Source: Cladochytrium replicatum (lineage: Eukaryota; Chytridiomycota; Chytridiomycetes; Cladochytriales; Cladochytriaceae). From it: a DNA stretch of 64,000 nucleotides. Position numbers and translations under genes: made by a program. Shown here piece after piece: positions 783-59,427 of this stretch (positions are counted from its first letter, which is position 1; the number at the start of each line of letters is the position of its first letter). The stretch lies in assembly GCA_025526935.1 (NCBI GenBank), contig JAHLKD010000078.1:224455-288454 (forward strand), given 5' to 3'. The notes under the pieces were generated by a model. That model saw nothing but the letters and a program-made list of their open reading frames with translations, did no database searches and was not told the origin of the DNA.

Positions 783-1791
783 TTGTGATCGCTCTTAGGA
801 AAGGAGAGAGTCAGGACTGATCGTGGATGATAAGTGTCACGAAGAGTGATCTCATTTATAGAACTGCGACGTAAGGAGGCAAAGGAGGGTGCGATGAAAT
901 ACGCCCGCGCTTAAGCACACACTCCGTCTCGATCGATCACTAATGCGCGAGGTCGAAAATATTAGGAGGACTTTTGATTGGGATATAAAAATAGAACAGA
1001 GTGGGGATAGACGATGTTGAATTTTCCCCACTCTGTCGCATGATTGTTTAATTGATCAAATAAAGCCGTCCGAACTAGTTTGATCGAATTAGAATGACTT
1101 GTCGGTCCCGGCCTAAACTCAGAAGTGGAACTTTTGATCTTCATTAAGCCCAAATGCTTTGTTTCGGAGGTCGTGCAGGAAGCTTGTAATTGGGCGCCCG
1201 TATTATGCAGCCATAGTTGCGCTGATTAACCCCGAATATGGATAAATCAATATTCGCCAATATGCAAAAATAGAGAGCAATGAGCTGATGTGTCATTTGG
1301 CCGAATTAGCACACAGAAGATCATTTTCCCAAAAACGGAGGCAGCTTCCCATATTCTCCATAAAGCAGCCCAGAGTCCAGGCCCTTCCGCTTTTCCGCTT
1401 GCCCAACCGGCCATCCCCAGCCTGCCCCGCCACAAATGAAACGCGACCCCGTGATCCCGTGATATATCTGGCGCGTAAGTCCGTCTGCACATTCCGTGAT
1501 CGCATCACATATCTGGGACCGACTCTGAAGGGGTGCAGCTCGCCTGTCCCCTCCCTCGCCACCACTATTTATTTGGACCTCCCCGCGTCAGCTGCGGGCT
1601 CTTGCAAAGTAAGCCCTGATTTTTATCCACTTCCCTTTCCCTGGTTTTTGGCGTGTATGATGGTTGGTCGCTCTTCCGCTGTGCAAAAGCGTGGTCCTCC
1701 ACACCGACCGAGCTCGATACCCCTTTATCGACGCGATGCATCTTCATCATCACTGAGGCTTTTGCCGCGTGAATCCTCCCATCTCCCCAAA
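783..1791. other. Intergenic region between divergent cyclin and GSK3 genes
   Basis: No convincing coding sequence. It is the shared upstream region of the minus-strand cyclin and plus-strand GSK3. A frame stays open upstream of the GSK3 ATG (1288-1791), but the translation is low-complexity and resembles no protein I know. It more likely represents the GSK3 5' leader. Confidence 0.6.
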
Positions 1792-3433
1792 ATGCAGAAC
1801 CCGTTGGCCATGTCCAGCAAGAAGAAGAATATTGTGAACCCGATGCAAGCTTCGACAATGGATAACAAGACTCCTAATGCCGCGTCGAGCAACAGCAACA
1901 GCACGACGGTGATCAACGGGATTAAACTGAGCAGTGGGTATCCACGATGACCGCTGAACTTCAACGATGTTGATTTGCGCGTTCTGCCGTTCAGATGAAA
2001 CAGATCCGTCGAAAGTCACAACGGTCCTCGCGAACGACGGAAAGACCGGCGAAGCGAAAGAGTTGTCATACACGAACTACAAAGTCATCGGGAATGGAAG
2101 TTTCGGCGTGGTCTTCCAGGCTAAAATCATCGAGACTGGGGAGCATGCGGCTATCAAGAAAGTGTTGCAGGATAAGCGCTTCAAAGCAAGTCGATGGCGC
2201 TAATAGTGATCCCCGGCGTGCTAAAACAGCAATCTGCTTCTTAGAACCGAGAACTCCAGATCATGCGACTGGTCTCACACCCGAACATAGTAGCCCTCAA
2301 GGCTTTCTTTTATTCGAACGGAGAGAAGAAGGATGAGGTGTTCTTGAACTTGATTTTGGAGTTTGTACCGGAAACCATCTATCGCGCGTCTAGACACTAT
2401 GCAAAGCTCAAGCAGACCATGCCAATGATCTGTGTCAAAGTAAGCGCGAGGAAAATTATCAACATTTGAAACCACTAATGCACGTCCATTCGATTCCAGC
2501 TATACATGTACCAACTCTTCAGGGCGTTGGCGTACATTCATTCACTAGGGATCTGCCACCGAGACATTAAGCCTCAAAACCTGGTAAGCTCTTTGCCCGT
2601 TTGTGTGCGATCCCTGACCTCAAACGCCTATCGTTCAGCTGCTTGACCCCGCATCCGGCATTTTGAAGCTGATCGACTTTGGGAGCGCAAAGATTCTCGT
2701 CGCGGGAGAGCCCAACGTCAGCTACATTTGCTCACGATATTACCGTGCACCAGAGCTCATATTTGGAAGCACTGGCTACGGTGTATGCATCGGTGAGTTA
2801 CCACATCCGCGTTAGAACCTCTTCTTCTCCAAAAGCTCACCAACTTCAACGCCAGACGTGTGGTCAACCGGCTGCGTGATGGCAGAGCTCATGCTCGGCC
2901 AACCACTTTTCCCGGGCGAATCCGGCGTCGACCAACTCGTCGAGATCATCAAGGTTCTCGGCACCCCGACACGCGAGCAGATCAAGGCGATGAACCAGAA
3001 CTACACAGAGTACAAGTTCCCGCAGATCAAGCCCTGCTCATGGAGCAAGGTGTTTCGTAACCGAGCGACGACGCCCGAGTCGATCGACCTTATCTCGAAG
3101 CTTTTGGAGTACACGCCCACGGCAAGGTTGACTGCCGTTGAAGCGATGACGCATCCGTTCTTTGATGAGCTTCGGAAGCCGGAGACGAAGATGCCGAATG
3201 GGAAGGAGTTGCCGCCTCTGTTTGATTTCTCAACACTGGGTATGTATTTCGGAGCCAGAGTTTGCTTTAAACAACTGATAAGCTGTGACGCTTCTGTAGA
3301 GCTGTCGATCAGGCCGGAGCTCAACCGCGTTTTGATCCCACCGCACGCCGAGCCGGCACTCCGTGCGCGCAACATCGACCTCGACAAGTTCCAGCCCGTC
3401 CAGATACAACAGCCAACCTCCCTCCACGATTAG
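1792..3433 (+). CDS. GSK3: Glycogen synthase kinase 3 (GSK3/shaggy family Ser/Thr kinase)
   Basis: Seven exons (1792-1933, 1995-2185, 2245-2439, 2500-2583, 2639-2792, 2856-3239, 3300-3433) give an uninterrupted 427-residue protein. The glycine loop GNGSFGVV is at 80-87, the ATP-binding Lys at 102 (AAIKK), the catalytic loop HRDIKPQN at 196-203, DFG at 217-219, and the GSK3 activation-loop signature [13 protein letters not shown] starts at 232 with the autophosphorylated Tyr at 233. The C-lobe [23 protein letters not shown] and the tail ELSIRPELN are typical of fungal Skp1/Rim11/Mck1-type GSK3. It phosphorylates primed substrates in glucose, stress and developmental signalling in cytosol and nucleus. 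Exon 2 ends in a GC donor (2186), so the intron 2186-2244 is GC-AG; the flanking residues ([13 protein letters not shown]) fix this junction. The ATG at 1792 is the first one after the 5' stops that fits; a second ATG lies six codons downstream (MAMSS context). Confidence 0.97.
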
Positions 3434-3883
3434 AACATATTAGAGTGCTACAATTTACGGTGTGTCGTTTGCTTTCAACCGATTTTTGGTGGATCGGCAG
3501 CTGAGGATGTTGGAGTGAAGCTATTTCAAATGGCTAATTTGCCGAGAGGCGGAGGGTTTGCGATTTTTTCAGTGCAACATAATTTTTGCCTTTCTGTTAC
3601 AGAACACTTAAGGGGGCAGCTTTGAAGCTGACTTCCAGACAAGATGGATACCACCCGGGTTACGCCTTTGAAAGAGTTCTTCGTTATTTATTGTCTCTTA
3701 TTCTTCAAACGTTGGGTTGGTGCTGCGAAAGCCTCGTCTCACACCAGATAACTTTGTTTTTATGGTCCTCCTTTCCTCTATAATGAAAGAAAAAAACAAT
3801 CAAACAAGAATAAATGGATCACGTGATGAACAGAGAAACCTCTCCTAAACATCATGTTCAGCCTCTGATCTCGACCTCTCAAG
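3434..3883. other. Intergenic
   Basis: 3' flank of GSK3. I see no gene, only short random frames and a modest A-rich stretch near 3784-3800. Confidence 0.5.
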
Positions 3884-4950
3884 ATGCGGATCCGTTCTCA
3901 GATGCAATGGCGATTGATGAACAGGAAAGCGCGAGCGGACAGGGACAGGACATTTGAGCATCAACCCGGATCCGCAAAGGCCCAGAGCAAACTCCAAATC
4001 AAAAGGATCAATAAAAGGGGCACAGAACTCTCCACCTGTCCGGATTCTCATCCTGCAAACACGCTGCCGGGTCCGCCACAAAGACCATCGCCCTCTAACC
4101 CGTCGTCGTTCTTCAACCGGATCCTGGGCACCACCCAACTCGCGATCACATCGCCCACGACCACCACTACTACACCGACGACAGGTGCGATGGACTCAAG
4201 CTCCTCCCCGCCCGCGCCGCCGTCTCGCATCGACCCGACGGACCACCTCGGCCTAGCGATCTACTACCACGAACAAAACTCGCTCGCGCACTCAGCGTTC
4301 CACCTCCGCCGCTCCGCAATCGAGGACGCACCCCGGTCGGACACTACCCGACTCGCGCGCGCCGCAGTCGAGCATCTTGTCAAAGCCGTCGACGCGAGCT
4401 TCGCGTTGATGGCGGGGCTATAAGGAAGGCGGTCGCGGAGGAGAAGAGGGCGAGCGTTGGGGCCGGGGAGAGGCTGAGGAGGCGGACACGGATTATCCAA
4501 AGGGGAGGTTGGGTCGGGGTGGACCGCAGGGACAGAGGGACGGAGTAGGTTTAGGGATATTGTGACGCTGGTGGGTTTGGCCAAGGGCGAGGATCCGCAG
4601 TCTATCGAGGCAGCCAGGGCGATCGTGCCGTTGCCGATGTACGAGATTGGGATGAGCTTCAGACATGGTTGGGGGGTCCCGGTTTGTGAAGACGCTGCAG
4701 CGTATTACCTGACTTTAGCAGCGCGTGAGTGACGTGCTTGATTGGTGATTTTCACTGAGATGCATCAGATCTTGGAGATGCAGATGCGTGCACCGAATTG
4801 GGCTATTGCAACTTGCACGGTTTGTCGCCAGTCCCGAAACCATACTTCTTGCTGTGAAGTACGTGAGGGAAGCATAGAAAGCCGGTGTTAAACTTATCGG
4901 GTAGAGCTGCGTCCATAAACGAAAGTGGGAGGGACTATCTGAAAGTAAGC
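3884..4950 (+). pseudogene. Decayed Sel1-repeat (HCP/TPR-like) protein gene
   Basis: The frame open from 3884 has a Ser/Thr/Pro-rich N-terminus (an internal ATG is at 4190) followed by DPTDHLGLAIYYHEQNSLAHSAFHLRRSA, then stops at 4421. Recognisable Sel1-repeat text continues in other frames: RFRDIVTLVGLAKGED at about 4540, EIGMSFRHGWGVPVCEDAAAYYLTLAA at about 4641-4724, and, after a plausible intron (GTGAGT at 4725), DLGDADACTELGYCNLHG. The family's usual C-terminus (KYVREA-KAGVKLIG-S.VHKRKW) appears at 4857-4930 with TAG in place of a residue twice. Sel1 repeats are scaffolding helices, for example in Chs4-like proteins. The region between 4420 and 4540 has only GC-rich low-complexity frames, consistent with frameshifts. 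I infer a pseudogene; sequencing error would have to strike several times to explain it. Confidence 0.7.
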
Positions 4951-5389
4951 ATCTCGAGAAATGTTAGCACATTCGGAAACAAGCTGCTTGTGGGCTCGTT
5001 GGGGGGCCCGTTTTGAATATCAAAAAAGTACAGCGAACAACAAGGAGCACAAAGTAATGAAATTTGTCCAAAAACAAAGGTCTAAACGGTGGTCCTCGAT
5101 TGTTCGAACACAATTGGTAAATGCAAAACCTACTCCCGTCCAGCAGCAACTGAAAACCCAACACCCCCGAGTCCCAGAATTTTTTTGATCGTGACACCAA
5201 ATGTTGCAAGCTGAATGTGTCCGTGATATGTAATGAGCGAATCGACTTCCAGAGCAGCTCACAACTCCAGAAGAAGGTGGGTGGGGAACAAAGTAACCAA
5301 ATTTATCGAAAGACGATGAAGCAGAGAGTCGAGAAATCGTGTTTTTAACGTGAGGTTGGAGACGGAAAAGGGAAAGTTTCGTTCTCCGT
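4951..5389. other. Intergenic
   Basis: No gene seen. It separates the Sel1 pseudogene from the 3' end of the minus-strand eIF5A gene and presumably holds the eIF5A 3' UTR. Confidence 0.5.
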
Positions 5390-6150
5390 TTAGGCCTTGG
5401 GGGCTTCCTTAACGGAAATGGCGGCCTCTTCGCCCATGGCAGCGATGACGGAGACGATCAAGTCCTTGCCATCGTGGAAGTCCTTCGAGATCTGGATGCC
5501 GAGCTCACCCTCAGGGACCTTGACGTCGTCCTTGGTGGAACCGTCCTGAGTCATTAGGGAGAGGAAACCGTCGTCGGTGACGTCGAGGAGCTGGTATTCC
5601 ATGCGACTGACGTTGGGGACGTCCATGTTGTGGGTGGAGGGAGAGATATCCTATAAATTTTGTTAGTACCCATACGAATACACGCAGAGATTGGCGCATA
5701 CTTCGAGCTTCTTGCCGTTGAAAATCTATCAGGAACGAGAGAGACACGTGAGACAAGAGCTGGTAGCAAGAAAGACTGTTCACTTACGTCGATGGCGACC
5801 AAGTGGACCTTCGCGTGACCGTGCTTTCCCGTCTTGGAAGTGGACATGTCGACAATCTTGCAGGGGCGACCCTTGATAACAACGAAGCCGTTCTTGCGCA
5901 GACCAGAGCACTAGTAGGAAAGCAAAAATACAAACAAATGAGTCAGTAACCAGACTCTCATCATTTGCCTCCATGGATAGATCCAAGACAAAGTATCGAC
6001 AAGAGCAGCATCAGTACAGCAGCCAAAGCATCAATACGCTACGAGGAATGCGCCGCCAACAACTGTGCAGTCAATTACCTGCATGGGGTAAGTGAGCGAA
6101 GCTCCCGCTCCGACGTTCTCGAAAGTCTCGTGGTGCTCCTCTTCAGCCAT
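5390..6150 (-). CDS. Eukaryotic translation factor eIF5A (hypusine-containing)
   Basis: Four exons (6150-6079, 5910-5788, 5725-5702, 5650-5390) join in frame to 159 residues, the usual eIF5A length. The hypusination loop [12 protein letters not shown] is at 47-58, with the lysine expected to be converted to hypusine at position 53. The N-terminal SH3-like barrel ([22 protein letters not shown]) and the OB-fold C-terminus ([13 protein letters not shown] ... [13 protein letters not shown]) are complete. eIF5A binds the ribosomal E site and relieves stalling at polyproline and other poor peptide-bond substrates; it also aids termination. The third exon is only 24 nt and encodes IFNGKKLE. The ATG at 6150 ([10 protein letters not shown]) gives the standard short acidic N-terminus. 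Confidence 0.97.
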
Positions 6151-6440
6151 TATGAGAAAGATGGATCTGTGAAAGCAAACAGCAAGCAGCGCACACACAG
6201 GCAGGCCAGCAGCACCGATGGTCAGCACCTTTCTTCCATATCCGTCCCCTTTTTTCCGAGTACCTTTTTTGGGTTGCTGGTGTGTAGGTGAGTAGCTGAA
6301 AGGGGGCTTGGGCGAAAGAAAAGGATTGGAGACTACGCCACCAAACAGACCATTCAGCGTGGGAACAGCAACATCTATGTTTTTTAGATACAGTGTGTAG
6401 AGTGTAAATACGGTTGGTGCGCGTGTTGCACACTACGGTT

Positions 6441-8356
6441 TCAGCCAAAACGCTTAGACATCTTCGTTGCAAGCTCGATAGAGCTGTACCACACTCCTCC
6501 GCACAGCGTGATCAAAATTCCTACAAATCAAAAATCAAGAAACCTTGCATCGTTCCCATCACAGTCCCACTTACCGAGCCCATTCAGAACATCCACCACG
6601 TACCCAAACACCCACATGCTCAGCAAAATCCCAAGTGCCTGCTTGACGTTCCCCGCGACCGTCATGCTCAGCGCCGATGTCTTCTTGTTCGCAGTGAACG
6701 ACACATAGTTGAGCAAGAACGCCAACACACCGTTCGTAAGCAGAGCGAGAAGCAGTCCATCGATGGTGAGCCATCCAACTGATGCTGCATGACCGCCGCC
6801 TCTGCTCTCTCCGTTCGGTTTTGTGCGAAGTGTAAACCAAGACCAGTCGGCTCGACGGAGCCGCGACACATTCGAGAGCATCCGATCGTACTCGCCTGAT
6901 ACATAGGCAATGAAAAGGCACTGCATGCATGCGAGGCTCGACATTCGCATGAGGAGATCCATCGGATGCAGACGGAGCCGTCCCACAAGCAACACGTTGG
7001 TCGCTACACCTTTGAGTGCTGAAAGCAGCACGCCCAGACAGGTCAGAAGGAACCCGAGTGCAGAGAAATCGTATTCCCCGAGCGTCGCCATCCCGACTCC
7101 AACGATCACCTATCATGACGTCATTTCAATCTCTCTGGCAAGCTGAAGTTCGTGAACTTGTCTACCATGGCAAGCGAGCAATATGTCAAGTTCGAATGCC
7201 GCTTTCCAAAGATCAGCTTCTCGAGAACGACAGTGACGGCCGGGTTCGTGCTTCGCACGATCTGGTGGAACGGCAAGCTTACCAGGTTCAACGACACGTT
7301 CGAGGTTGCGATGTTGACGGTGTACAGCACAGAAAACGCGAGCATCACGAATAAATCCTGCACACTCTCCGCTCGCCTCCTCTGTGCGTCGAACACGTTC
7401 TGCTTGGAGGCTTCGCTCGACGTCGCACCATCTCGAGTCTGATCCACCGAAAAGGGGAGTTTAAGATCGGACGGCGCCCCAGGTTTGTTGTGCGAAATGT
7501 TGATGTCGACAATCTTGAAGACGTAGACTGTAAGATACGCACCGATGACTGAGCAGAAGGCGTGGAGGGCGGTGAGGAGCCACGGGTACTTGAACTTGAA
7601 CATTTGAAGGATCACCTTGTTATCTTTGTTTTGCCCAAAGGAGGATATTTTCAGCTCAGTCGAATCACAAAGGCGATATATCTGAATATCTCACGTACAG
7701 ATTGTGATCGAGAGGTTCAAGAAGAAGTACGCCAGCATCCATCCGGCCGAAGAATCCAGCATGTCGATCGCTCTCCGTACAAAGCCCAGCGGACCTCGGA
7801 CGCAGTCCAGCCCGCACCATTCAACCAAGTTCCAGACACCAGAGTACTGCTCCGACTTTCGCTTCCTCGCTGTATCGCTCACTTCGAGGGTACTTTCCTG
7901 ATCTTTCTCTTTTGCGTCGAGGTATTGGTGGAAATGGTGTGCGTGCATCTGGTGTGGTGAGAACACCGGGGAGTCGGGCTGGTGTGCGGCTGGATCACAC
8001 ACCATCACCGGAGCTCGGTTTGTGCATCTGCTGGGGGAGGATGTCGTGGTTGAGGAAGAACGTAAAGGGGTGTTGAAGGAAACGGATCCCGGGCGTCTCA
8101 TTGGCTCGTCTTCGGTGTACAGATCACGATCTATTATTTCGAAAAGAGTCTCGGGTTTTACTTTTGAGAGGCTGCTGTGATCAGGGGAGGTTGGGACGTA
8201 AGGCGGAGGAGGATGATCTGGCTGGTTGGAATCAGACACGGTTGGAAAGGTGGGTGTACTACGACTTGTCCGTGAATTTCGATCTGCGCTAGATGGTAGC
8301 CGCCTCTCGCTGGATCTGGCAGGTGAAAACGACAAACTCAGCTCGGAGTTGTCCAT
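6441..8356 (-). CDS. Triose-phosphate-transporter-family (DMT superfamily) membrane transporter
   Basis: Exons 8356-7699, 7623-7166, 7109-6575 and 6530/6520-6441 (the last starts at 6520) splice in frame to 576 residues. The first ~200 residues are Ser/Pro/His-rich and probably cytosolic. They are followed by AYFFLNLSITIYNKVILQMFKFKYPWLLTALHAF, the first TPT helices, and by the conserved helix pair TNPAVTVVLEKLIFGKR and GEYDFSALGFLLTCLGVLLSALKGVATNVLL. This is the TPT/SLC35 arrangement of roughly ten membrane spans in Golgi or ER nucleotide-sugar and phosphate-ester transporters. The substrate cannot be read from the sequence. I placed the start at the ATG at 8356; the frame is open upstream to 8428, but the only codon there is GTG. 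A variable ~45-residue hydrophilic loop between helices 2 and 3 carries a Lys/Arg-rich segment. Confidence 0.85.
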
Positions 8357-8428
8357 CTGCACCGCGAGACGCGATCCTTCAACAGCTGACTGGCGCAGTG
8401 TTTTCGCTGAAGTTTTAAAAAACTTCAC

Positions 8429-8827
8429 AACTTAAAACATTGAAATTATAATGACAGTAATATCAAGACGTATTCATTCCCAAGTAAAAGTTAGCGGGCT
8501 TAAGGGTTACTCAATTGAGCGAGGTTAAAAAGAACTTTTGCTTGATCGTTACTTTCCTCGCCATGTTCATCTCCATCCGTAAGAACAAGGTCAGAAATGC
8601 GATGCGCGCTAACCATCGATAGCCTTTTCTGGTCCATACTGACGAGCGCATATCGTGCGACCGGCGCAGAAGCCCATTGAACATGGTCAAATATTTGCTC
8701 CACCCGATACCTCTCAACCAAATCCTTTTTAACCTCGCTCAATTGAGTAACCCTTAAGCCCGCTAACTTTACTTGGGAATGAATACGTCTTGATATTACT
8801 GTCATTATAATTTCATTGTTTTAAGTT
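8429..8827. repeat. ~102-bp inverted repeat enclosing a copied gene fragment
   Basis: Arms at 8429-8531 and 8726-8827 are reverse complements, with only about two differences (one substitution and one length change). They can fold into a hairpin with a ~195-nt loop. The loop (8536-8727, 192 bp) is a base-for-base copy of the sequence immediately outside the right arm (8827-9018). The arms carry no recognisable coding sequence. The structure starts directly upstream of the minus-strand transporter gene. Confidence 0.85.
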
Positions 8828-38011: not shown

Positions 38012-39243
38012 TCATGGCTCGAGCATGTTCTGCTGCAAGGTCTGCAAGCACCTCCTCGTGGTCATATCATCCTTCAAGATCGCCGTGAATGTCCCATCTC
38101 GCAACGGCTCCGGCAAACACGCCCTCAAAGCCTCCCTCGCCCTCGCATTATCCGACAGTCTTAAGTAACATCTGATCACATGCTTGAGTAGTCTGATCGA
38201 CTGCTGCTCGACGAGGTGTGTGACCATGTTTGCGAGGACCGCCGCCACCGCAAAGAAGCGCTCGTAGGTCTGGCAGATGTAGTTGAGGCCCATGTCGTCG
38301 AGGAGGATCTTTTGGACGATGAAGATGGCAACGGTTTTGGAGAGTTCTGAGCCAGTTTCCATGATTCTGAGACAGAGTGGGATGATTTCGGTGGAGAGGA
38401 GGAAGTTTGTGACTTCGGTATTGTCGTTCTGGGTAAGAGCAGAGTTAGACTGAATAAAGAAGATTAATTCAAGAGCTCACCTTGACGAGAGCGCCGATGA
38501 CACCTAAGCTCGTGAGACGGAGGTATTCGAATGGACGGGTCTTGCTGGTGGTGTTCAGGAATGGATATAGGAACAAAGGGAGGTGTGCTAACATTAGGAG
38601 TGAGCAGCAAGATAGATACATTTAAAAAGGGTCAGCTCACCGTTCAAGAACAGGGATCGAGTCTCGTTATGGCTGGCTACACACTGCAATAGGGCTAAGG
38701 CGTTGCAAACTCGGTTTGAAGCATGTCCCGTCAGCGTTCCAGGTGTAAGAATAGGATAGACTGCAACAATCTCCTGGAGCAGCGCTGCCATCACACCTAA
38801 AATACAGCCAAACCATCAAACGCAGTTCATCCTGTTTCATTGATTTGTGATCACACACCAAACGAGTGCCACAGAATTGGGGCCAAATCTTCGTACGTCT
38901 CACGCTTTTTGCTCAGCTCTAGTAAGGCCGCCTCGCGGTGTTGTGGGTTCGTCAAATCCAAAATGAGCTGGTACACCTTTTCTTCATCGAGGTAGTGACC
39001 CTGTGGTACGTTTACACCGGGCATGGGCATTCCGCGCTGCTGTATGACAGGGTTGGGTTGCATTCCGCCTGGGTTCGTTCCTGGCGGCCCAGCGCCGGCC
39101 AGCATGAGTTCCGCAGCGGTCGGGCCGAGCGGGATGCCATGGAGCTGGTTTGCGAGCGACGACTGCTGTTGTTGCTGCTGCTGCTGGTAGAGGTAAGGCA
39201 GCTGCTGCTGGTTCTGCAGGTGGTGCTGTGCGAGCGAGTGCAT
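38012..39243 (-). CDS. CAF40: CCR4-NOT subunit CNOT9 (Rcd1/Caf40)
   Basis: Exons 39243-38859, 38796-38641, 38587-38481 and 38428-38012 splice in frame to 354 residues. After a Gln-rich leader ([16 protein letters not shown]) comes the all-helical armadillo core: [113 protein letters not shown], and [32 protein letters not shown]. This is the most conserved CCR4-NOT subunit; it binds NOT1 and recruits GW182 or RNA-binding proteins, and is also known as Rcd1. The frame is open upstream to 39330 but starts there with GTG, so I use ATG 39243. An upstream exon cannot be excluded. The gene is head-to-head with the next one, 31 bp or 115 bp apart depending on the start used. Confidence 0.94.
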
Positions 39244-39358
39244 TTCTCGAATGGCAAGAGTTTCTACGTTGTGAATGAAACTTGCCAAGTTTTGTGGAGA
39301 TTTTGGGGGGGCACACGGCGTCACTGCCACGGCAGATCAGATCACAACTCTGTTAAGA

Positions 39359-41996
39359 ATGGAACACATCGAGAAGGTCAACGTTGTGGACGAGCCAGTT
39401 GCACTGGAGGAAAGCACTACTACGTTGAAGGCGACCGTAGACGTGCCGGACATCACGCTGATCCGCTCAACCGACGGAAAGAGGATGCCATGGAAGAACG
39501 GACTCGGAGAAACCACTGAGTTGGCAATCTACCCTGACTCCAAGGACTACCGCAAGGACGAGTTCATCTGGCGTCTAGCCATCTCTGAGGTTCTCGACTC
39601 TTGCTCATTCTCCGTCTTTCCGAACTACTCCGTCGCAATGCTCCTCCTCCCAGAGCAAGGTGCCCTTTACCCTCAACAACAGCAGGGCCGTTCATTGAGC
39701 CCTGCAAGTCTGCACCATAACGACCATGAGGCTGGCGTGCCTTTGAAACCTCTCATTCCGTATGTCTACCAAGGCGAATGGCCCACACAATGCCGCGTGA
39801 ACAATGGTCCGCTTAAATGCTTGGTGTTCATGGCAAACTCTCGCTATACCATCGTCGCCCTCAATGTGGAAACTATCTGTCCCCATGGTCTCTCTAACGA
39901 TGGTCACTGCGGATTTGAATCAGATGTCGAGTCCGGATTTGGAACGCCAAACCCTGTTCATTCCCCAAAAAGCCTTGTCGCTCAGGCAACGACGAATGCC
40001 GCATCTGCATCTGTAGCTTCTTCAATTTTTGCGGGGAATGAACTTGTCCCGCCTCTTCCGAACAGGGCCACTCACAACTCGACCTCAAAGATATTGCTTG
40101 GACACTTCACCATCATCTATGTTATTCGCGGTGCCATCAAAGCATCGTTCGAGGGCGACACCAAATCTTCGCGTTTGGTTTCCGCAGGTCAAACTCTGGT
40201 CTGTGAGCGGCATGAAGACGCAGCCCCCACGGATCTCACCATGTCTCCACTTGCTGGTTCAACAGAAGACGAAGGTAAACGATGGTTGAGTAATCAATGC
40301 GTGCACTAACTTAAGGAGATATTTCCTTAGGCTCACACATTGATGCGACGATTCTTGTCATACAAGCCAATCGAAAACGCGAACGTCGAGGCTCCATTAT
40401 CGACTGCGGCTCCTCCGTCAGCATGAGCTCGCTTGCCCGATCCCGTCGTGGCAGCATCATCGTCTACGACGATCAACCCCTTCCCGTATTCTCACCCCTC
40501 GAATCCCAGCTCTCACTATCCGATGTCAGCCAAGCCGCGCTTGCAGCTGCAACCGCCAATGCGAATGCTGTCGCTTCAGCAGGAAACACAGCGAACCCGG
40601 GATTGCAGGTGAAATTTTGGGAGTCTGCGAAACACTATCGTCCACCAGTGTTCTCTGCGAGATACCAGAATGAGTCCGATGTCCCTCCGCCAATGGTGCG
40701 TGACGATCTCTTGATTGATGAGTTTCCGAAAGGGAAGATCTCGACGCTGTGGATCAACATGGTCAAGCAGGGCTTGTCTGAGTGGTTGCGTATTCCCGTG
40801 ATCGTCGCACGAGGCACCGAAGATGGGTAAGTTGCTTCATGCTAAATTGCACATCTGAAGTTTTGACAATTCATCCATCTCGTCATCTCTACGGCGTATA
40901 TCTTTCCGCCAGTCCCGTGGTAATGCAATCTCCCCTCGCAAAGCTGTCTTCTACCAAACTGAGCTGTTTGATTCCCAGGTCGGAATCACCGCCGCCGTGC
41001 ACGGCAACGAACTCAACGGCGTCCCCTGCATCCACCGCGTCATCTCCGACATCGACGTCCACCGCCTCAAAGGCACCGTCGTCGCCTGCCCCTGCATCAA
41101 CGTCCCCGGCTACCTGCGCTTCACACGCGAGTTCTCCGACGGCAAAGACCTCAACCGCGTCTTCCCGGGCGCGGAATCCGGTACGGCCTCCCAGATCTAC
41201 TGCTACCAACTCATGCAGAAACTGATCCACCATTTCGAGTACTTGATTGATCTCCACACGGCGAGCTTCGGACGTGTGAACAGCTATTATGTCAGGAGCG
41301 ACATGAACGACACGGTTTCGGCTGTGCTGGCGAAGCTGCAGCAGCCGCAGATCATATTGCACAGCAGCGGACAGGATGGTGAGGTTTTAAACACGCTGGA
41401 GTTCGGTTAATGATTGACACCGTCGTTCTCTGTAGGCACACTTAGAGGAGCAGCGATGCAGAAGGGGATCAAAGCCATCACTGTCGAAATCGGTAACCCG
41501 CAACTACTCCAGAACCAATACGTCCAATGGTCCTACCTCGGCGTCATGCGCATCCTAAACTACCTCAATATGTTCACATCTGACCCACTCCAATCACCAA
41601 ACGGTACAGCAGACGATCCAGCTTGGCTTTCCCTCGGCACTCCACCGCCCCCAACCACGATCGTCTGCAGCAAAGGGTTCTGGATCTACACACGCACGGG
41701 CGGTGTTCTCGAAGTGTACCCGGCTGTCAACACTGTCGTGAGGAAAGGAGCGTTGATTGCAAGGATCAAGAATATATTTGGGAATATTGTGGAAGAGATA
41801 TTTTGTCCGAGCCATGGCGTCGTGAGTACTTTGTGGAGTTAGATTCGTGGGGAGATGTGTATTGATTGTTGTTTTTCTGTAGACGATTGGAAGGAGCTCG
41901 AATCCGGTGGCCATGGCTGGGGATCGGGTTATGCACCTTGGCATACTCAGGAAAGAGGGCGAGGCGCTCCCTGCAATTGCGAAGGAAAACTATTGA
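39359..41996 (+). CDS. HutD/Ves-like domain fused to a zinc M14-type deacylase
   Basis: Six exons: 39359-40274, 40331-40826, 40913-40919, 40979-41378, 41436-41821 and 41883-41996, 772 residues, in frame throughout. Residues 30-310 are a HutD/Ves-like cupin with the signature GKRMPWKNGLGETTELAIYP...FIWRLAISEVLDSCSFSVFPNY and a large insert. After a linker comes an AstE/aspartoacylase-type catalytic domain with zinc ligands His481 and Glu484 (TAAVHGNELNG) and His566 (LIDLHTASFG). The family deacylates amide bonds on amino acids or small acyl groups; HutD proteins accompany histidine-use genes in bacteria but have no firm biochemistry. The third exon is 7 nt (TCCCGTG) and is needed to keep the reading frame and the conserved GPVVGITAAVHG. 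An alternative ATG at 39275 would add 28 residues. Substrate unknown. Confidence 0.82.
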
Positions 41997-48462: not shown

Positions 48463-51400
48463 TCAAGATAGTATATTAAGTGAAGACTGACTGACTAGCC
48501 CCAACGAGCCCCTGTGTTTAAGGTATAATTTACTTCCAAGAGGTTTAGTTAAGATGTCCGCGATCATATCAGAAGTATCCATATGGTGTAACTCCTGATG
48601 TTTCTGTTCAACTTGGAGATTCACAAATCTCTCGCGAACGTCCATGTGTTTGGTCCGTTTGTTGTTGAACAGATTGTTTGCGATAGACTCGGTGGATTGA
48701 TTGTCTTGCCATAAACGGAGCGGATTGAACGACGTAATTCCAATACCCGTCATAAGATTTTTCATCCACTTCATCTCACGCGATAGTTCGTTCAGCGCAT
48801 ACAGTTCGGCTTCCGACGACGAGGCTGCAATAGTCTGTTGTCGAATCGACTGCCAACTGATTGCCGCATTAGCGAACATTACCACGTAACCGGTTCGTGA
48901 GTATCTATCTGCATCGCCCGCCCAGTCTGCATCGGCATAACCTTGTGGGTTGTTAGCCGAATCAAACATGTAGAGACCGTCGGGTCTTAGCATCGGAGAC
49001 GTGATACCAGTCCGTGTATAGTGTAAACCATAATCCCAAGTACCGAGTAAATATCGTTTTAATCGATAGAGAGCCTTTGATTCTGACTGTCGAGGATCAA
49101 TCTGATGTTGTGCCAAAATATTGACTGCGTATGAAATATCCGGTCGTGTCTTAGTCGCCACGTACGATATCTTCATTAACATTGATCGAAATTGTGTTGC
49201 CTCGGCATCGGACAGTGTTGGTGTGGTCTCATCAAAGATATATGATTTTGACATCGGTGTTTTGGTCGGTTTGATGTTGGTACCCCATAAATTCGCTTCT
49301 TCGAGAATCTTCTTTACGTACAATGCATTACTAAGGAAATATCCTTCCGTTGTCTGCAATAACTCCATTTTCAGAATCCATTTCGCCTTCGAAGTACTGC
49401 CTACTGTGAACGAAGTTTCCAAATCGGTCTGAAACCGATGATATGCGTTTGGATCTGTGGAAAAATGTAGTATATCATCGACATGAACGGTAGTGTGTTC
49501 GCGGGTATTATTTGTTGGATTGTATCGCCAGAAATGACAGATGTCTGCAATATTCCGCACGAAACCAACACTGAGATATTGTTTCCAAAGAGTTTTGTAC
49601 CATTCTCGAGCTGCCTGGTGTAGACCGTACAGACTTTTGATAAGTCTGCAGACGATGGGTCGATTCTGGAAATCTACTCGTCCGAAACCATGAGGGAGTT
49701 CGACGTAGTTCTCTTCTTCCAGTATCGCATTGAGATATGCACCCTTGATATCAAACTGGAATATGATCATGCCGACTAATGCTGCTAATGCAATCAGAAA
49801 ACGGATCGTGGACGTTTTCGTAACTGGAGAATAGGTTTCATCGAAATCCAATCCTTCAATCTGTGAAAATCCTCGTACGACCCAACGTGCTTTGAATCGA
49901 GTAATATTGCCATGTTCGTCAAGCTTATATGTGAAAACCCATTTGCCCGATAATAAATTCCGTCCATCAGGTAAAAACGTTTCGGCCCAAGTATTGTTGC
50001 CGACCAGTTGTGTAACTTCCTCCTTCATCGCCGCTAACCAGAATGGAGCCTCATCGGATCGTGATAAAGCCTCACGAAGAGTCTTTGGTGCAGTCCGTAT
50101 ATTTCCATTCGCAATTGGTTGTGTTGGATATGAGGAATCGGCCTTCAGGGTCCAATCGATATTAGGAACGGACCGGGTAAACAAGGAATTTTGTTTCCTT
50201 TTGGCGTTCGACAAATTTGCACTTGCTTGACGTTTTCGTTTTCTTGCTGCATATGCTTCGTCGACATCTTCTCCAATGAATTGAAGATCACTTTCGAGTT
50301 GTGCATCATATTCCTCTACAGGAGATACGGAAGACAAATTCGGAGATTCTTCAGTAATGGATTGTGGAGTCGATAAATCAGCATTTGGATCATAATCAGC
50401 ATCGTCTGGGTCATCATCGTCTAGTCCATGTAAATGTTCAACAACATGCATGTCACCGGCTTCTTCTAAGCGGTAATATATGGGGTCGTCGTTTATATCC
50501 TCATCGATTTCTTCGTCTGCAACGGTAGAAATCGGGAAATTGTCTGAGACAAACTCAACAGTCGTCTCTTGCACCCCCTGATCCCCGGTTGGTATTTGAT
50601 CAACATCGAAATATGTCCCGGCCTTCAGTGGATATTGTACCGTAAGATCGTCGAGTAACTGTCGGGTAGGATTATAACCAACAAAAACTCCCTCGTGGAA
50701 CGTAACATGGAAGTATTCGCCTATTGTGTTTGTCCGAAAATTGAGTGCTATGACGATCTTCAGGTCTTCACCCTTGTATCCGAGAAACAGACCTAGTTCA
50801 GACTTGTCTCGGATTCTGTGCGCCAACCTTTGTTCGTGTGAGATCCACAAACTAACGAGTGTTCCAAAGGCGTGGATAGTTGCCAAATCTATCCGCTTGT
50901 CAAGGTAAGCACAGTACGGAATCGCATTCACAGCTGAATGGAAAGTAGCGTTCTTGACGACCGCAGCGTATAGGATGGAGAGTTGCACGAATTGAAGTGT
51001 TCGTGGTAGTCCAGCTTGTAGCAGCATCGCGTCCGACATATACTTGATCGATTGTATATTCCGCTCTGATAGACCATCGAGTTCCTTTACTGACGGAGGA
51101 GCTGGGTGGACGCGGATGCGAGGAATCTTGGTATTGCACCATTGGATCAACCGTTTAGTAATCAATTCTCCTGAATCGGAACGTAGTTCAGCAACGTGTA
51201 ATGGGTGATTGCGATTTTCCACATCAGCGATATGTCGAATCATACTATCCACCGCATCACTCTTTCGATTCAGGAAGTAGATTGTGATGAAACGAGGTTG
51301 TTCGTCGACAATGATCTGCCAATATCTCTTCTTCTGTCCGTCGTAGATTAAACGTACGACATCGGAAAACAGACGGAAAAGTTTCCTCGGAGCTCGACTT

Positions 51401-53646
51401 ATTGTAGAATAAATCGGCTTCTGCTTCAGCTTTGTGCGACTACAGACCAAACAATTCTGCATAATTGATTTGTTGACAAGATTGAATGCATCCGGTTCAA
51501 CCTTGGGCATTTTGATGTTGAGCTTCTCTGCCGTTCGAAAGATCGTCCGTAAGTGGATGTGACCAAACTGCTGGTGTAACTTTGCAAGTTCGTGTACTGT
51601 CACTGGCGATAAGTTGGTGCTCACTCTAACTGTATCTTGAGATGCTCGTTGACATTCATCATCGTTCGTTTGACGAATGTTGTTGTCTGACATTACATCG
51701 AGACCCATCGCGTGAGAAGATCGTACACCGGACGTAAAGTCCATCGACTGATCGAGACCTTCTGCGGATACCGCTACTGCTTTAGCTCGTTGAGCAATCG
51801 CATGCCGCGGTTGGTGAGTTCCGACGGTACTAACATCAGCATAGAGATAGTACAAATCTCTTTCCCGTCGCCCAATAATAACGTGTTCATCCGTATCACC
51901 ATGCGTGAGGATAACCTTGTCTTTGGTGAAACTCACAATGTCCCCGGAGTCTCCAATGATACTACACACTGATGCAAGTGTGTCTTCGAGATCAGGAACA
52001 TAAAGTGCGTTGTGTATTATCTTAATTCGCCCATTGGGTAAAACTACAGATACATCTCCAAAACCACAAACTGGAATTGTATGACTATCCGCTAGTTCCA
52101 CCACGTCCTCGTCATTCGTATACGTCAGCGAACTAAAGGCATGACGATTAGGTGTCATCCAAACAGTTGCGCCTGTATCAAGCAAACCCACACGATCCTT
52201 TGCTTGAACATGTACACGGACAACCTTCTGTGCCGAGTGTGCGTTCACTATCGAAAACATATTTCCGATGTATGTGTCAGCATCTTTATCAACAGAAGTA
52301 GGTTGGGTAAGGTCAAAGATTACCTTCTTGGTCAGCACCGGTTTGGCGGTAGATTCGTCCTCCGACGAATCATCACCTGCATCGCCACGGCTGGCAATGA
52401 ATGCACGAAAATCCGTGTCTAAACAAAGACTCTTTGCAGTGAGATAGCGTTTACACGCCGACTGCTTGTGTCCTCGTTTGCCACAGAAATTGCATGTGAG
52501 ATCTGTCTTCTTTGCAGAAGAAGATGTGGACGACCTGGAGTCCTGCGACTGCCTGGTCCGAGTGGAACTGCTACTCCCACCGCTACTGCCTGAGCCACCC
52601 GAGGCACCCTGCTTACGGCATTGAGCATTGGTGTGAGATGAGTTCGGATGCAAGGTACAAATATCCTCCGACTTCGCAACCTTGGCTTTCGCTTTCGCCT
52701 TCGCTTTCTTCGCCTTTGCCTTCATGGCCTTCTTTGTCCCATTCGGCCCACCGGCATCCATGGTGACGTTGAGTTGGACCAATTGGTTTAGGTCGGTCAA
52801 GATATTTGACACTGTTTCGAAGTAATGCGTTGGCTTTTGGTGGAATGGTCGCGGAGCATTCGGGTTTGCAGCATCAATTGGATCTTGTATTAACGCCGGT
52901 TCCCATTCGGCATACGCAGAAGTGATCATTTTTCCGAGAAAAGGTACGAGGGTCCGTAGTTCAATTGTCTGCATCGTGATTTTTGCGACTAACCGGTTTA
53001 GTAGATCCTTGATTACGAGTTCGTCCGGTAAAGAGTTCAGTTTGAGTTCGAATAACTCAGTGAGGTCGGTCACAAACTGCTGAACGCTTTCTGCCGACTG
53101 ACCGTTCGTACATTTCAGATCTACCAGCCGTTGCTCCCACATAGACGATTCGATCGGAGCTTGACCGCCAGCACTGAAAATTCGGCGAAGTCCATCGACT
53201 TTGCCTTTTGCTGACGCATAAGCTCTGACTCGATTCATGTCGCGTTTTGGGAAACATTTGCATAGAATTCCAACTGCGACGTTATTGTCCGCTTGTTGTG
53301 CACGGTAATCTTGCATCTCAGCACGATATTGCGTACGTAAGTGACTGTTGTGTGTGACGATCGCCAAATGTTCACGTAGTTCTGCTTCCCATTGTGCTCG
53401 TGCTTCGTTAGCAGCTCCGCCAGCAGCTCCGGCGATGACTATCGGACGCTGTGGGCGATTTCCTTCCGCCTCGTAATTCGGACTATCAGGAAGAGCCATT
53501 GGTTCTTGGAGAAGCATAGTGCCAGCGCCGCCACGTAAGTTTGCGTAAGTCTGCACTTGTTCCATGTACAGATCGAAATCCTGCAGCGTTTTACCGGTGA
53601 ATGGCTTCGGCCGCGAAGATGTGGCGTCATTCGATCCTGAACCCAT
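48463..53646 (-). CDS. copia Gag-Pol polyprotein
   Basis: A single intact frame of 1727 residues. The first ATG is at 53646; the codon at 53664 is TTG. Domain order is the copia order: Gag (to ~330); a zinc knuckle CNFCGKRGHKQSACKRY (~390); protease LLDTGATVWM (~500); a GAG-pre-integrase and integrase zinc finger (HQQFGHIHLRTIF...NCLVCSRT) with catalytic core; then reverse transcriptase (WVFTYKLDEHGNITRFKARWVVRGFSQ, FQFDIKGAYLNAIL). The RT active site reads VHVDDIL where most relatives have YVDDM. RNase H follows, with YADADWAGDADRYSRTGYV, SSSEAELYAL and DNQSTESIANN. There are no stops or frameshifts, in contrast to the surrounding transposon. Confidence 0.97.
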   Translation of the reverse strand: MGSGSNDATSSRPKPFTGKTLQDFDLYMEQVQTYANLRGGAGTMLLQEPMALPDSPNYEAEGNRPQRPIVIAGAAGGAANEARAQWEAELREHLAIVTHNSHLRTQYRAEMQDYRAQQADNNVAVGILCKCFPKRDMNRVRAYASAKGKVDGLRRIFSAGGQAPIESSMWEQRLVDLKCTNGQSAESVQQFVTDLTELFELKLNSLPDELVIKDLLNRLVAKITMQTIELRTLVPFLGKMITSAYAEWEPALIQDPIDAANPNAPRPFHQKPTHYFETVSNILTDLNQLVQLNVTMDAGGPNGTKKAMKAKAKKAKAKAKAKVAKSEDICTLHPNSSHTNAQCRKQGASGGSGSSGGSSSSTRTRQSQDSRSSTSSSAKKTDLTCNFCGKRGHKQSACKRYLTAKSLCLDTDFRAFIASRGDAGDDSSEDESTAKPVLTKKVIFDLTQPTSVDKDADTYIGNMFSIVNAHSAQKVVRVHVQAKDRVGLLDTGATVWMTPNRHAFSSLTYTNDEDVVELADSHTIPVCGFGDVSVVLPNGRIKIIHNALYVPDLEDTLASVCSIIGDSGDIVSFTKDKVILTHGDTDEHVIIGRRERDLYYLYADVSTVGTHQPRHAIAQRAKAVAVSAEGLDQSMDFTSGVRSSHAMGLDVMSDNNIRQTNDDECQRASQDTVRVSTNLSPVTVHELAKLHQQFGHIHLRTIFRTAEKLNIKMPKVEPDAFNLVNKSIMQNCLVCSRTKLKQKPIYSTISRAPRKLFRLFSDVVRLIYDGQKKRYWQIIVDEQPRFITIYFLNRKSDAVDSMIRHIADVENRNHPLHVAELRSDSGELITKRLIQWCNTKIPRIRVHPAPPSVKELDGLSERNIQSIKYMSDAMLLQAGLPRTLQFVQLSILYAAVVKNATFHSAVNAIPYCAYLDKRIDLATIHAFGTLVSLWISHEQRLAHRIRDKSELGLFLGYKGEDLKIVIALNFRTNTIGEYFHVTFHEGVFVGYNPTRQLLDDLTVQYPLKAGTYFDVDQIPTGDQGVQETTVEFVSDNFPISTVADEEIDEDINDDPIYYRLEEAGDMHVVEHLHGLDDDDPDDADYDPNADLSTPQSITEESPNLSSVSPVEEYDAQLESDLQFIGEDVDEAYAARKRKRQASANLSNAKRKQNSLFTRSVPNIDWTLKADSSYPTQPIANGNIRTAPKTLREALSRSDEAPFWLAAMKEEVTQLVGNNTWAETFLPDGRNLLSGKWVFTYKLDEHGNITRFKARWVVRGFSQIEGLDFDETYSPVTKTSTIRFLIALAALVGMIIFQFDIKGAYLNAILEEENYVELPHGFGRVDFQNRPIVCRLIKSLYGLHQAAREWYKTLWKQYLSVGFVRNIADICHFWRYNPTNNTREHTTVHVDDILHFSTDPNAYHRFQTDLETSFTVGSTSKAKWILKMELLQTTEGYFLSNALYVKKILEEANLWGTNIKPTKTPMSKSYIFDETTPTLSDAEATQFRSMLMKISYVATKTRPDISYAVNILAQHQIDPRQSESKALYRLKRYLLGTWDYGLHYTRTGITSPMLRPDGLYMFDSANNPQGYADADWAGDADRYSRTGYVVMFANAAISWQSIRQQTIAASSSEAELYALNELSREMKWMKNLMTGIGITSFNPLRLWQDNQSTESIANNLFNNKRTKHMDVRERFVNLQVEQKHQELHHMDTSDMIADILTKPLGSKLYLKHRGSLGLVSQSSLNILS

Positions 53647-53697
53647 CTTGTCGTTGTTGTCCAAAGAAATGTGTTAAGCAACGATTCGTAACTATTG

Positions 53698-57077: not shown

Positions 57078-59427
57078 TTAAAAGAGTGGGTTATCATCAG
57101 TTGCTTCCAACTCTAATACCACATCAAAATCCTTGCCAAAATTATGCACCTTTACAAAATCCTCACTAACATCACTTTTTGAATCTAGGGAATCATTTTT
57201 GAACTGTTCTTCAGCACTCAATTGATGCAACCAGTCATGACGGCACATCAACGCATTTATTGTTCTTGGAGCGAGGCGGTTGCGAGTTGCAGGTACCAAA
57301 TCAACCCCGGCTGAAAACTTTCGTTCGACTGGAGCGCTTGTTGCTGGTATTCCTAAATAGTCCATTGCCATCTGGCTTAGGGCTGGAAAGTTCACACTTC
57401 CAACGGTCTTCCACCAGTCCATAATATTGATTGGCTTCCCATCAGAATCAATACCGCGGAGTACCTGATCGCCAAGATAGCGATCCAGCTCATCTTTTTC
57501 CTCAGGAATCTCTTCTTGCCAGATGAAAACGGATCTAATGGCTCTCAAGCGTTCAGCGTCCGTTTTTTTCTGTCTATCACCGGAAGCTCCGCTCGAATCG
57601 TGTCGACGTTCTGGCGTGTTTCCAAAAACATCGGCACCACTGTTCTTGATTTTCCGTGACTTATACGATTCCTCCCAGACTTTCCGCACTAGGGTGACCT
57701 GATCCCTTCCTACATCTTTCTCCCAAGCCTTTGAAAATCGATAATATTGATCCTTAAAACGAGGATCGAGTACCGTAGCAACTGCTAAACACGGGCTCTT
57801 AGCAATTGAGTAATATATTCTCAGCTTATCTAGTGCATTTCGAAATGCTTTGGTGAAAGTTTCATCCAGTTCTGCCTCCTCTAGGTCCTCCAGTTGATCG
57901 ATAAGATCGTTGTAAAATGGAATAACAAGCGGAAGTGTTGGATATCTAGACCCCTCGATTGCCTTTGACATAACCTCGAAAACACTCAAACCATCCCGGA
58001 TCTTCTGTAGGACCTCCCATTGCTTTGGATTTATTGACCAATCTTTCAAAGAATCTTCAATCCAGCATATTTTGTCCATTGCCTCTCGTAGCTGTAAGGC
58101 TCGTTTGACCATATAGAAAGTGCTATTCCAGCGAGTTGTCACATCGATAATTGGTAATAGAGGAACCAGTTTCACAAATCGGCACGAATCAATAAATGAG
58201 CTTCGTCGTTTTGGGGAAGACCGGATTCCTCTGACTAGCAGTCGAAGAAGGTTTATGACATTAACGCCGGAGTTATTGTCATTTGCGACTGTGTCCCCTG
58301 CAGGCGCGAATGTATCGATAAAATCCTTTGCTGCAAGATTGATAATGTGTGCCATACACCGCATGTGTTGAGTTTCTGCAGACCACGCAATATCCCTATC
58401 TTCCAAGAGCGTCTCCAGCTTAGCACTCATGGTAAAGTTGTTTGAACCATTGTCGGTTGTAATGCATCACCCGATAGCATGCCAAATTCATCCAGCAACT
58501 TGACAAGCTGACTAGCCATGGCGACGCCTTCATGCTTTCCAACCATCGGAATCATCTGCAGCAGCAAGTCCTGCGGCTCCCATTCTTTCGTGATGAAGTG
58601 GGCAGTAATTCCAAGAAAAGAAATCTGGTTCTTCGATGTCCAACAGTCAGCTTTTATTGATACTTTTGAAGGCGAACCAACAATCAGACCTTTAACGAGC
58701 TCCTTCTGCCTATCGTAAAGATCCATCTCCTTTTGCTTCACTGCTTTTGCCGTCTTTGGTGTATAGTTTGGCTGAAAAGTCTTCAGCATGCTGACAAAGA
58801 ACTCGTTCTCCACAACAGTAAAAGCCTGATTGTCTGCAGCAATCCAGTCCAAAATCGACCGCCACGCTACGTCTGGATTGAACACAAAGTTTTGCTCCTT
58901 CTCCTGCGAGCCGAAATTCATGTCTGTTGTCCCTTGGGGACGATGTCCAACAGTCCAAGCGACCTGGCAATACTTCCATGGTGGTTTTTCAGATGCCGGA
59001 GGAAGTTTTTTGTTGATCCCGTCTTATCGACCTTCTGGCTCCACTTGCATTTCGCAACCAAACATGCTCTCAGACCATTATCAACCTTATAGTAATCCTT
59101 CGCTATGCCACCTCGACTACCTCTACAGTCTGACATGCTATCAACATCTGCGTCTGATGAAAGCATTGATGGTTGAACTGATCCAGCTGCAGGCTCCTGT
59201 CGCACTGAAGAGTCAGCAAAACTAATGTCGGCAGGAAGCTCTGGTGCATGCTGAGAAGCCAGGCCCACTTGCTGGAGTCCATTGAAAAGAAGATGTGGAG
59301 CTCGGCTCTCGAGCACTGTTGTTGCCACCGTGTCCTGATACACGTCTGCGTTTGTCCTGCATGCTGTTCCCCTCGCTGGACGCCTCTGAAATTTGGGGGG
59401 CTGGCAGACTTCGCTTCCGTGTGTCAT
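57078..59427 (-). pseudogene. hAT-family transposase with frame breaks
   Basis: Three adjacent minus-strand pieces form one hAT transposase. The first (ATG at 59427 to 58918) has a BED-type zinc finger (ACLVAKCKWSQKVDKTGSTKNFLRHLKNHHG, Cys2His2). The second (to 58427) has KADCWTSKNQISFLGITAHFI with the first catalytic Asp. The third (58430-57078) starts just after DNGSNNF and ends in the dimerisation region TSAPVERKFSAGVDLVPATRNRLAPRTINALM. A frame change near 58465 (the text reads ITTDNGSNN in a different frame from LSGDAL) and another near 58921 break the chain, so the protein is probably not made intact. The element is nonautonomous unless these are assembly errors. Confidence 0.9.

Follow-up and report, generated by a model that had tools for sequence, protein, structure and literature searches.

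A candidate seven-nucleotide exon ahead of the zinc-binding motif in a HutD-deacylase fusion gene of Cladochytrium replicatum

The fusion gene and its reading frame

The window analyzed here, a stretch of 64,000 nucleotides from one contig of the Cladochytrium replicatum assembly, carries a plus-strand gene at 39359-41996 that was modelled as six exons of 916, 496, 7, 400, 386, and 114 nt (Table 1). With the 7-nt insert included, the six exons form a single open frame of 772 residues. Position 39359 was chosen as the start codon of exon 1, and an upstream start is possible, as an ATG at 39275 lies in the same uninterrupted frame. It was also noted that the GC content at third codon positions (GC3) shifts sharply within the gene, with 0.84 in exon 4 compared to 0.57, 0.59, and 0.44 in exons 1, 2, and 5. 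Elsewhere, the window contains an ERG4/ERG24-type gene and, on the minus strand, both an open frame of 1736 residues from stop to stop (48466-53673), whose RVT_2 reverse transcriptase domain we take to be Copia-type and which looks like a retrotransposon, and the C-terminal part of a hAT transposase (57081-58466). The ergosterol gene and the shortness of the introns are in keeping with a fungal genome.

The first 735 residues of the protein from the 7-nt model were compared with Pfam, and two domains were found above the curated cut-off of 25. The HutD domain (PF05962) was matched by residues 39-160 (61.8 bits, E 1.2e-16), with the match spanning only profile positions 3-106 of 181. The AstE_AspA_cat domain (PF24827) was matched by residues 471-648 (100.1 bits, E 1.6e-28), beginning precisely at the glycine whose codon is finished by the microexon. 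The predicted gene product is a HutD-like domain fused ahead of an AstE/AspA-type deacylase domain. Within exon 4, the HGNE motif has its His codon at 41000-41002 and its Glu codon at 41009-41011, and the His codon of the DLHTA motif lies at 41255-41257. A narrow HutD motif, sought in six frames at 80 bacterial relatives with flanks of up to 1.5 kb, was found near none of them. The long N-terminal reading of one bacterial relative (L087) was set aside, as judged by eye it resembles out-of-frame sequence. Among titles and opening lines of abstracts, with partial coverage of the literature, we found no paper on this gene or on a fungal HutD-AstE/AspA fusion, and nothing on a microexon together with aspartoacylase.

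Table 1. Exons and introns of the fusion gene in the window, with the further deacylase copies found in the same genome.
Feature	Coordinates	Strand	Description
Exon 1	39359..40274	+	Open frame; HutD-like domain encoded at about 39473-39838
Intron 1	40275..40330	+	56 nt, GTAAAC..TTAG
Exon 2	40331..40826	+	Phase 2 at its end, where GG begins the final codon of ..ARGTEDG
Intron 2	40827..40912	+	86 nt, GTAAGT..CCGCCAG; acceptor weak
Microexon (putative)	40913..40919	+	7 nt, TCCCGTG; completes Gly471, encodes Pro472 and Val473
Intron 3	40920..40978	+	59 nt, GTAATG..GATTCCCAG
Exon 4	40979..41378	+	VGITAAVHGNE and DLHTA; Pfam PF24827
Intron 4	41379..41435	+	57 nt
Exon 5	41436..41821	+	C-terminal part of the deacylase
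Intron 5	41822..41882	+	61 nt
Exon 6	41883..41996	+	Includes the stop codon
Deacylase paralog	G000:C22:51500-57000, about locus 1270-2580	minus	Eight exons inferred in the part modelled
Damaged copy	G000:C45:144500-154400, locus about 3585-8533	mixed	Parts of the gene and of the upstream flank 38903-39245
Third deacylase copy	G000:C67:231500-237000, locus about 1370-3199		Close to C22

We then consider the junctions around the microexon. Exon 2 ends at the donor ATGG/GTAAGT (40826/40827), the 7 nt stand in the context CCGCCAG/TCCCGTG/GTAATG, and exon 4 begins at the acceptor GATTCCCAG/GTCGGA (40978/40979). Two bases of a glycine codon are left by exon 2 at its end, and exon 4 opens a fresh codon, so a length of 3n+1 is needed between those two ends. 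The earlier note had held that a direct join of 40826 to 40979 breaks the frame and that reading through fails, and both points were reproduced. The direct join gives 552 residues without HGNE, retention of both introns leads to an immediate stop (471 residues), and retention of the intron at 40920-40978 alone leads into the wrong frame (574 residues). TCCCGTG has AG before it and GT after it, and the introns on its two sides run GT..AG and are of viable size. Its insertion was found to restore the frame as had been claimed, giving ARGTEDG-P-V-V-GITAAVHGNE within the 772 residues, and every coordinate of that earlier account was verified.

Other copies in the genome and conservation of the encoded residues

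Homologues were sought in prokaryote collections and in the genome to which the window belongs (198 contigs, 50.5 Mb). The deacylase paralog on contig C22, 50% identical in the deacylase alignment, was without a HutD match in its 5.5 kb region (tblastn). It codes AGPIVGITAA inside one exon, with no intron at the microexon position and with an intron of its own later, directly before HGNE. This uninterrupted exon reads AKGVKAGPIVGITAA, and the single exon reading over the region is also given as RVPVMVAKGVKAGPIVGITAA.

The C22 paralog appears to possess tiny exons of its own at other places. Its motif RVMP-GKKN-GTAAQ is best read with a homology-inferred 13-nt exon (GGAAAGAAAAACG), and the model with this exon came first of 1,905 (225.1 bits versus 217.5 for the next and 205.6 for the best single-intron model) when scored with a profile of 80 bacterial proteins (the best 80 of 415) and the window's 7-nt model. 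Further downstream, a 28-nt exon was placed by eye. The inferred 13-nt exon, taken together with the 7-nt exon of the window, suggests that tiny exons recur in this deacylase family.

Two further copies were less informative. The one on C45 consists of five pieces that are 72-88% identical to the gene, with rearranged order and strands and with stops, and has the look of a decayed duplicate. When 40561-41200 was searched against it at high sensitivity, only 41083-41188 gave a significant match, and none was obtained at the microexon; being rearranged and interrupted by stops, this copy speaks neither way as an allele test of the microexon. The copy on C67 is 70.8-90% identical to the C22 paralog over four pieces, and approximately 79 nt lie between pieces that are approximately 623 nt apart in C22. 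The HGNE stretch is missing from it, probably through a deletion, and it was rejected as a comparison.

The residues that the microexon would supply were also compared with bacterial relatives. Scanning of prokaryote genomes gave 491 matching stretches, of which 415 were confirmed; the best 80 were kept, and all of these were examined. Counting from HGNE, these best 80 of the 415 have G at -14 in 79, G at -10 in 74, V, T, or I at -8 in 80, L, V, I, or F at -7 in 80, and G at -6 in 80. Position -9 holds K 42 times, P 35 times, and D, E, or T three times. Because the patterns used in the scan extended only from -4 to +3 of the HGNE motif (or targeted another motif), positions from -5 upstream were not preselected by pattern. 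The relatives were retrieved with a query that already contained P-V-V, and the C22 and bacterial exons were read from uninterrupted DNA. Five PDB chains were also matched (3cdx, 2qj8, 6twl, 6twm, and 3na6), and the three of these alignments that were examined were ungapped from GP to HG. The proposal that G-P-V-V-G-I-T-A-A-V is the conserved approach to the zinc site thus agrees with the paralog, the bacterial relatives, and the PDB alignments.

In human aspartoacylase, the zinc ligands are His21, Glu24, and His116 (PMC5412892). The corresponding His-x-x-Glu and later His are present here as HGNE and DLHTA and were aligned with those of the C22 paralog. The zinc-site reading fits, with HGNE following directly after the strand and with the ligand roles transferred by motif from the human enzyme.

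Splice sites, model ranking, and chance expectation

Splice sites were scored with a matrix derived from ten further introns, three in this gene and seven in C22, all of them homology-inferred. Among GT sites in the window, the exon 2 donor ranks within the top 2.4% and that of the microexon within the top 3.7%; among its AG sites, the exon 4 acceptor ranks within the top 1.8%. The microexon acceptor scored -0.25, with 46% of window AG sites equal or better. The training acceptors, when left out one by one, ranged from -0.5 to 9.3, with one of the ten below -0.25 and the next at 0.7. This mediocre acceptor, at the low edge of the training range, is the weakest point of the 7-nt model. The two introns beside the microexon fit in size with the gene's others (56, 57, and 61 nt) and with the inferred introns of C22 (51-94 nt).

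Splice models were enumerated from GT or GC donors and AG acceptors, with none, one, or two introns and with the middle exon limited to 60 or 90 nt, over 40760-41040 (923 models) and over 40700-41060 (2,857 models). The 923 models were scored with a profile of the best 80 of the 415 bacterial relatives plus the C22 paralog, and the 2,857 models, in which introns were allowed down to 25 nt, with the same best 80 of 415 bacteria only. The 7-nt model ranked first in both. It scored 262.7 bits among the 923, compared to 254.5 for a 4-nt exon, below which stood other two-intron models; the best single-intron model reached 240.5. Among the 2,857 the 7-nt model scored 261.1 bits, compared to 252.9 for the next and 238.9 for the best single-intron model, the latter lying 22 bits under the 7-nt model in both enumerations. 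When splice-site scores were added in the larger set, the 7-nt model again led (280.6 versus 267.7). HGNELNG was reached in frame by 20/125 single-intron and 189/797 two-intron models of the 923-model set.

The runner-up at 254.5 and 252.9 bits is a 4-nt microexon, TCCC (40913-40916), that would use the donor GTGGTA three bases upstream and yield a protein one valine shorter. It keeps the frame, and yet its homology score is 8 bits worse, it falls one residue short of the spacing that C22 and the bacterial relatives show, and its donor is weak (1.34 versus 6.07). We regard this shorter exon as having next to no likelihood.

The earlier note had called the microexon required. This stands for the conserved residues, for which the 7-nt model is the first-ranked splice model, and falls for the frame alone, where the word is too strong because in-frame single-intron models exist. 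The most serious rival lacking a microexon is among them: a 34-nt intron (40827-40860) would be removed, and 39 residues (FDNSS..LFDSQ) would replace Pro-Val before VGITAAVHGNE. No stop interrupts the downstream frame between 40859 and 41410, the total frame comes to 809 residues, and the summed splice score of 11.7 is the top of the four in-frame single-intron models listed. This model lies outside the 923-model set, which had a 35-nt intron limit; in the larger set it scored 236.9 versus 261.1 bits (24 bits worse), or 248.6 with splice scores. The conserved Gly-x-hydrophobic strand, which is identically spaced in C22 and the bacterial relatives, would be lost, and the 39 residues would be inserted where both have none. 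Its intron would be much the shortest, compared to 51-94 nt for the ten others in both genes. GC3 also points weakly to an intron upstream of exon 4, as it is 0.49 over the 39 codons directly before that exon and 0.92 over its first 39; little weight can be placed on this contrast, since values between 0.31 and 0.77 are found among 39-codon windows of exons 1 and 2, and exon 5 has only 0.44. From these comparisons, the 34-nt intron was judged improbable.

A chance expectation was obtained from 20,000 dinucleotide shuffles of the 152-nt stretch, with the outer 6 nt fixed and both introns at approximately 40 nt or more. A stop-free, frame-restoring AG..GT microexon of 1-28 nt was present in 52% of the shuffles, and one of exactly 7 nt in 10%. 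Family-like residues (P, K, D, E, or T, then V, T, or I) were encoded by a 7-nt exon in 0.3% of the shuffles, and the stricter combination of P or K, then V, T, or I, in 0.14%. Because frame rescue is this common by chance, the evidence lies in the encoded residues and not in the frame.

These values also bear on whether the gene has decayed here, with no full-length protein and with the microexon as a chance reading. The frequency of frame-restoring microexons among the shuffles would be in keeping with decay, as would the damaged and rearranged copy on C45, through which the family is seen to decay in this genome. Against this, all the other exons are open through the 772-residue frame, both Pfam domains are well above cut-off, and the 7 nt code family residues at the rate of 0.3% given above. 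Decay of the gene was accordingly considered extremely unlikely.

Proposed splicing and comparison with known tiny exons

We estimate a probability of about 0.9 that the gene has a constitutively spliced 7-nt internal exon (40913-40919) that rebuilds the strand before the zinc-binding HGNE. The spliceosome would remove the 86-nt and 59-nt introns, one on each side of the microexon, and each would most likely be recognized across the intron, a mode that suits short fungal introns. In short-intron splicing, recognition across the intron needs no large exon, and since both flanking introns are of ordinary size, such recognition would need none here. The 7 nt would then finish the split glycine codon and add Pro-Val, restoring G-P-V-V-G-I-T-A-A-V, the strand that runs up to the zinc-binding H-G-N-E in the AstE/AspA-type deacylase domain, with its presumed enzyme activity.

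Two introns stand seven bases apart here and none is found at that place in the paralog, which suggests that the microexon may have arisen by two separate intron gains or by a shift. An alternative route, in which a cryptic exon rescues a lost base, was proposed in PMC12940212.

Exons of comparable size are known from several systems. Plant acid invertases have a 9-nt mini-exon coding Asp-Pro-Asn, which similarly encodes part of an active-site motif, but in plants and with a length that is a multiple of three. The closest parallel described is that of the Fusarium CYP621A genes, in which a 1-nt exon was seen across 20 orthologs and in SRA reads (PMC12940212). Both cases are fungal and were discovered through exon phases that would not join; in both, the tiny exon finishes a glycine codon in a conserved motif, and a family member that lacks the introns supports it. 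Left unsplit, the intron would likewise be long in each, with 139 nt in CYP621A (over twice the median) and 152 nt here, compared to 51-94 nt. The two differ in exon length (1 nt versus 7 nt), in family (CYP621A being a P450 family), and in the support from orthologs and reads that the CYP621A exon has.

Among the Phanerochaete chrysosporium P450s, an 8-nt micro-exon of CYP5141A1 lies in the I-helix motif AGHETT according to the discussion in PMC12940212, and PMC1184071 gives P450 exons down to 6 bp and frequent small introns (45-55 bp). These resemble the present case in having exons under 10 nt, that of CYP5141A1 also inside a conserved motif, and differ in enzyme family and genome. The single-nucleotide exon of Arabidopsis APC11, as outlined in PMC4674806, is similar in being a constitutive ultra-small exon missed by annotation, and different in belonging to a plant, in its 1-nt length, and in having been tested with GFP fusions. 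With exons of 1, 6, and 8 nt already published from fungi, the 7-nt exon would be a sound candidate addition.

A microexon switch regulated by glucose is described for Trichoderma virens Xlr2 in PMC11121469. It is likewise a fungal microexon whose inclusion alters domain content, but inclusion is glucose-regulated there. As 7 is not divisible by three, omission of the exon would shift the frame, and the predicted exon-skipped product of 552 residues would keep the HutD domain and be without the zinc site. By analogy with Xlr2, the microexon might act as a regulated switch between the HutD-deacylase fusion and a HutD-only form, which we consider improbable and far less likely than constitutive splicing.

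The finding matters mainly for annotation. Gene-finding software tends to miss exons of such size, and automatic annotation may well misread this gene, either by skipping the exon, with loss of the deacylase, or by accepting the 34-nt intron, with a false insertion of 39 residues. For splicing biology, the microexon would be one more candidate fungal exon under 10 nt.
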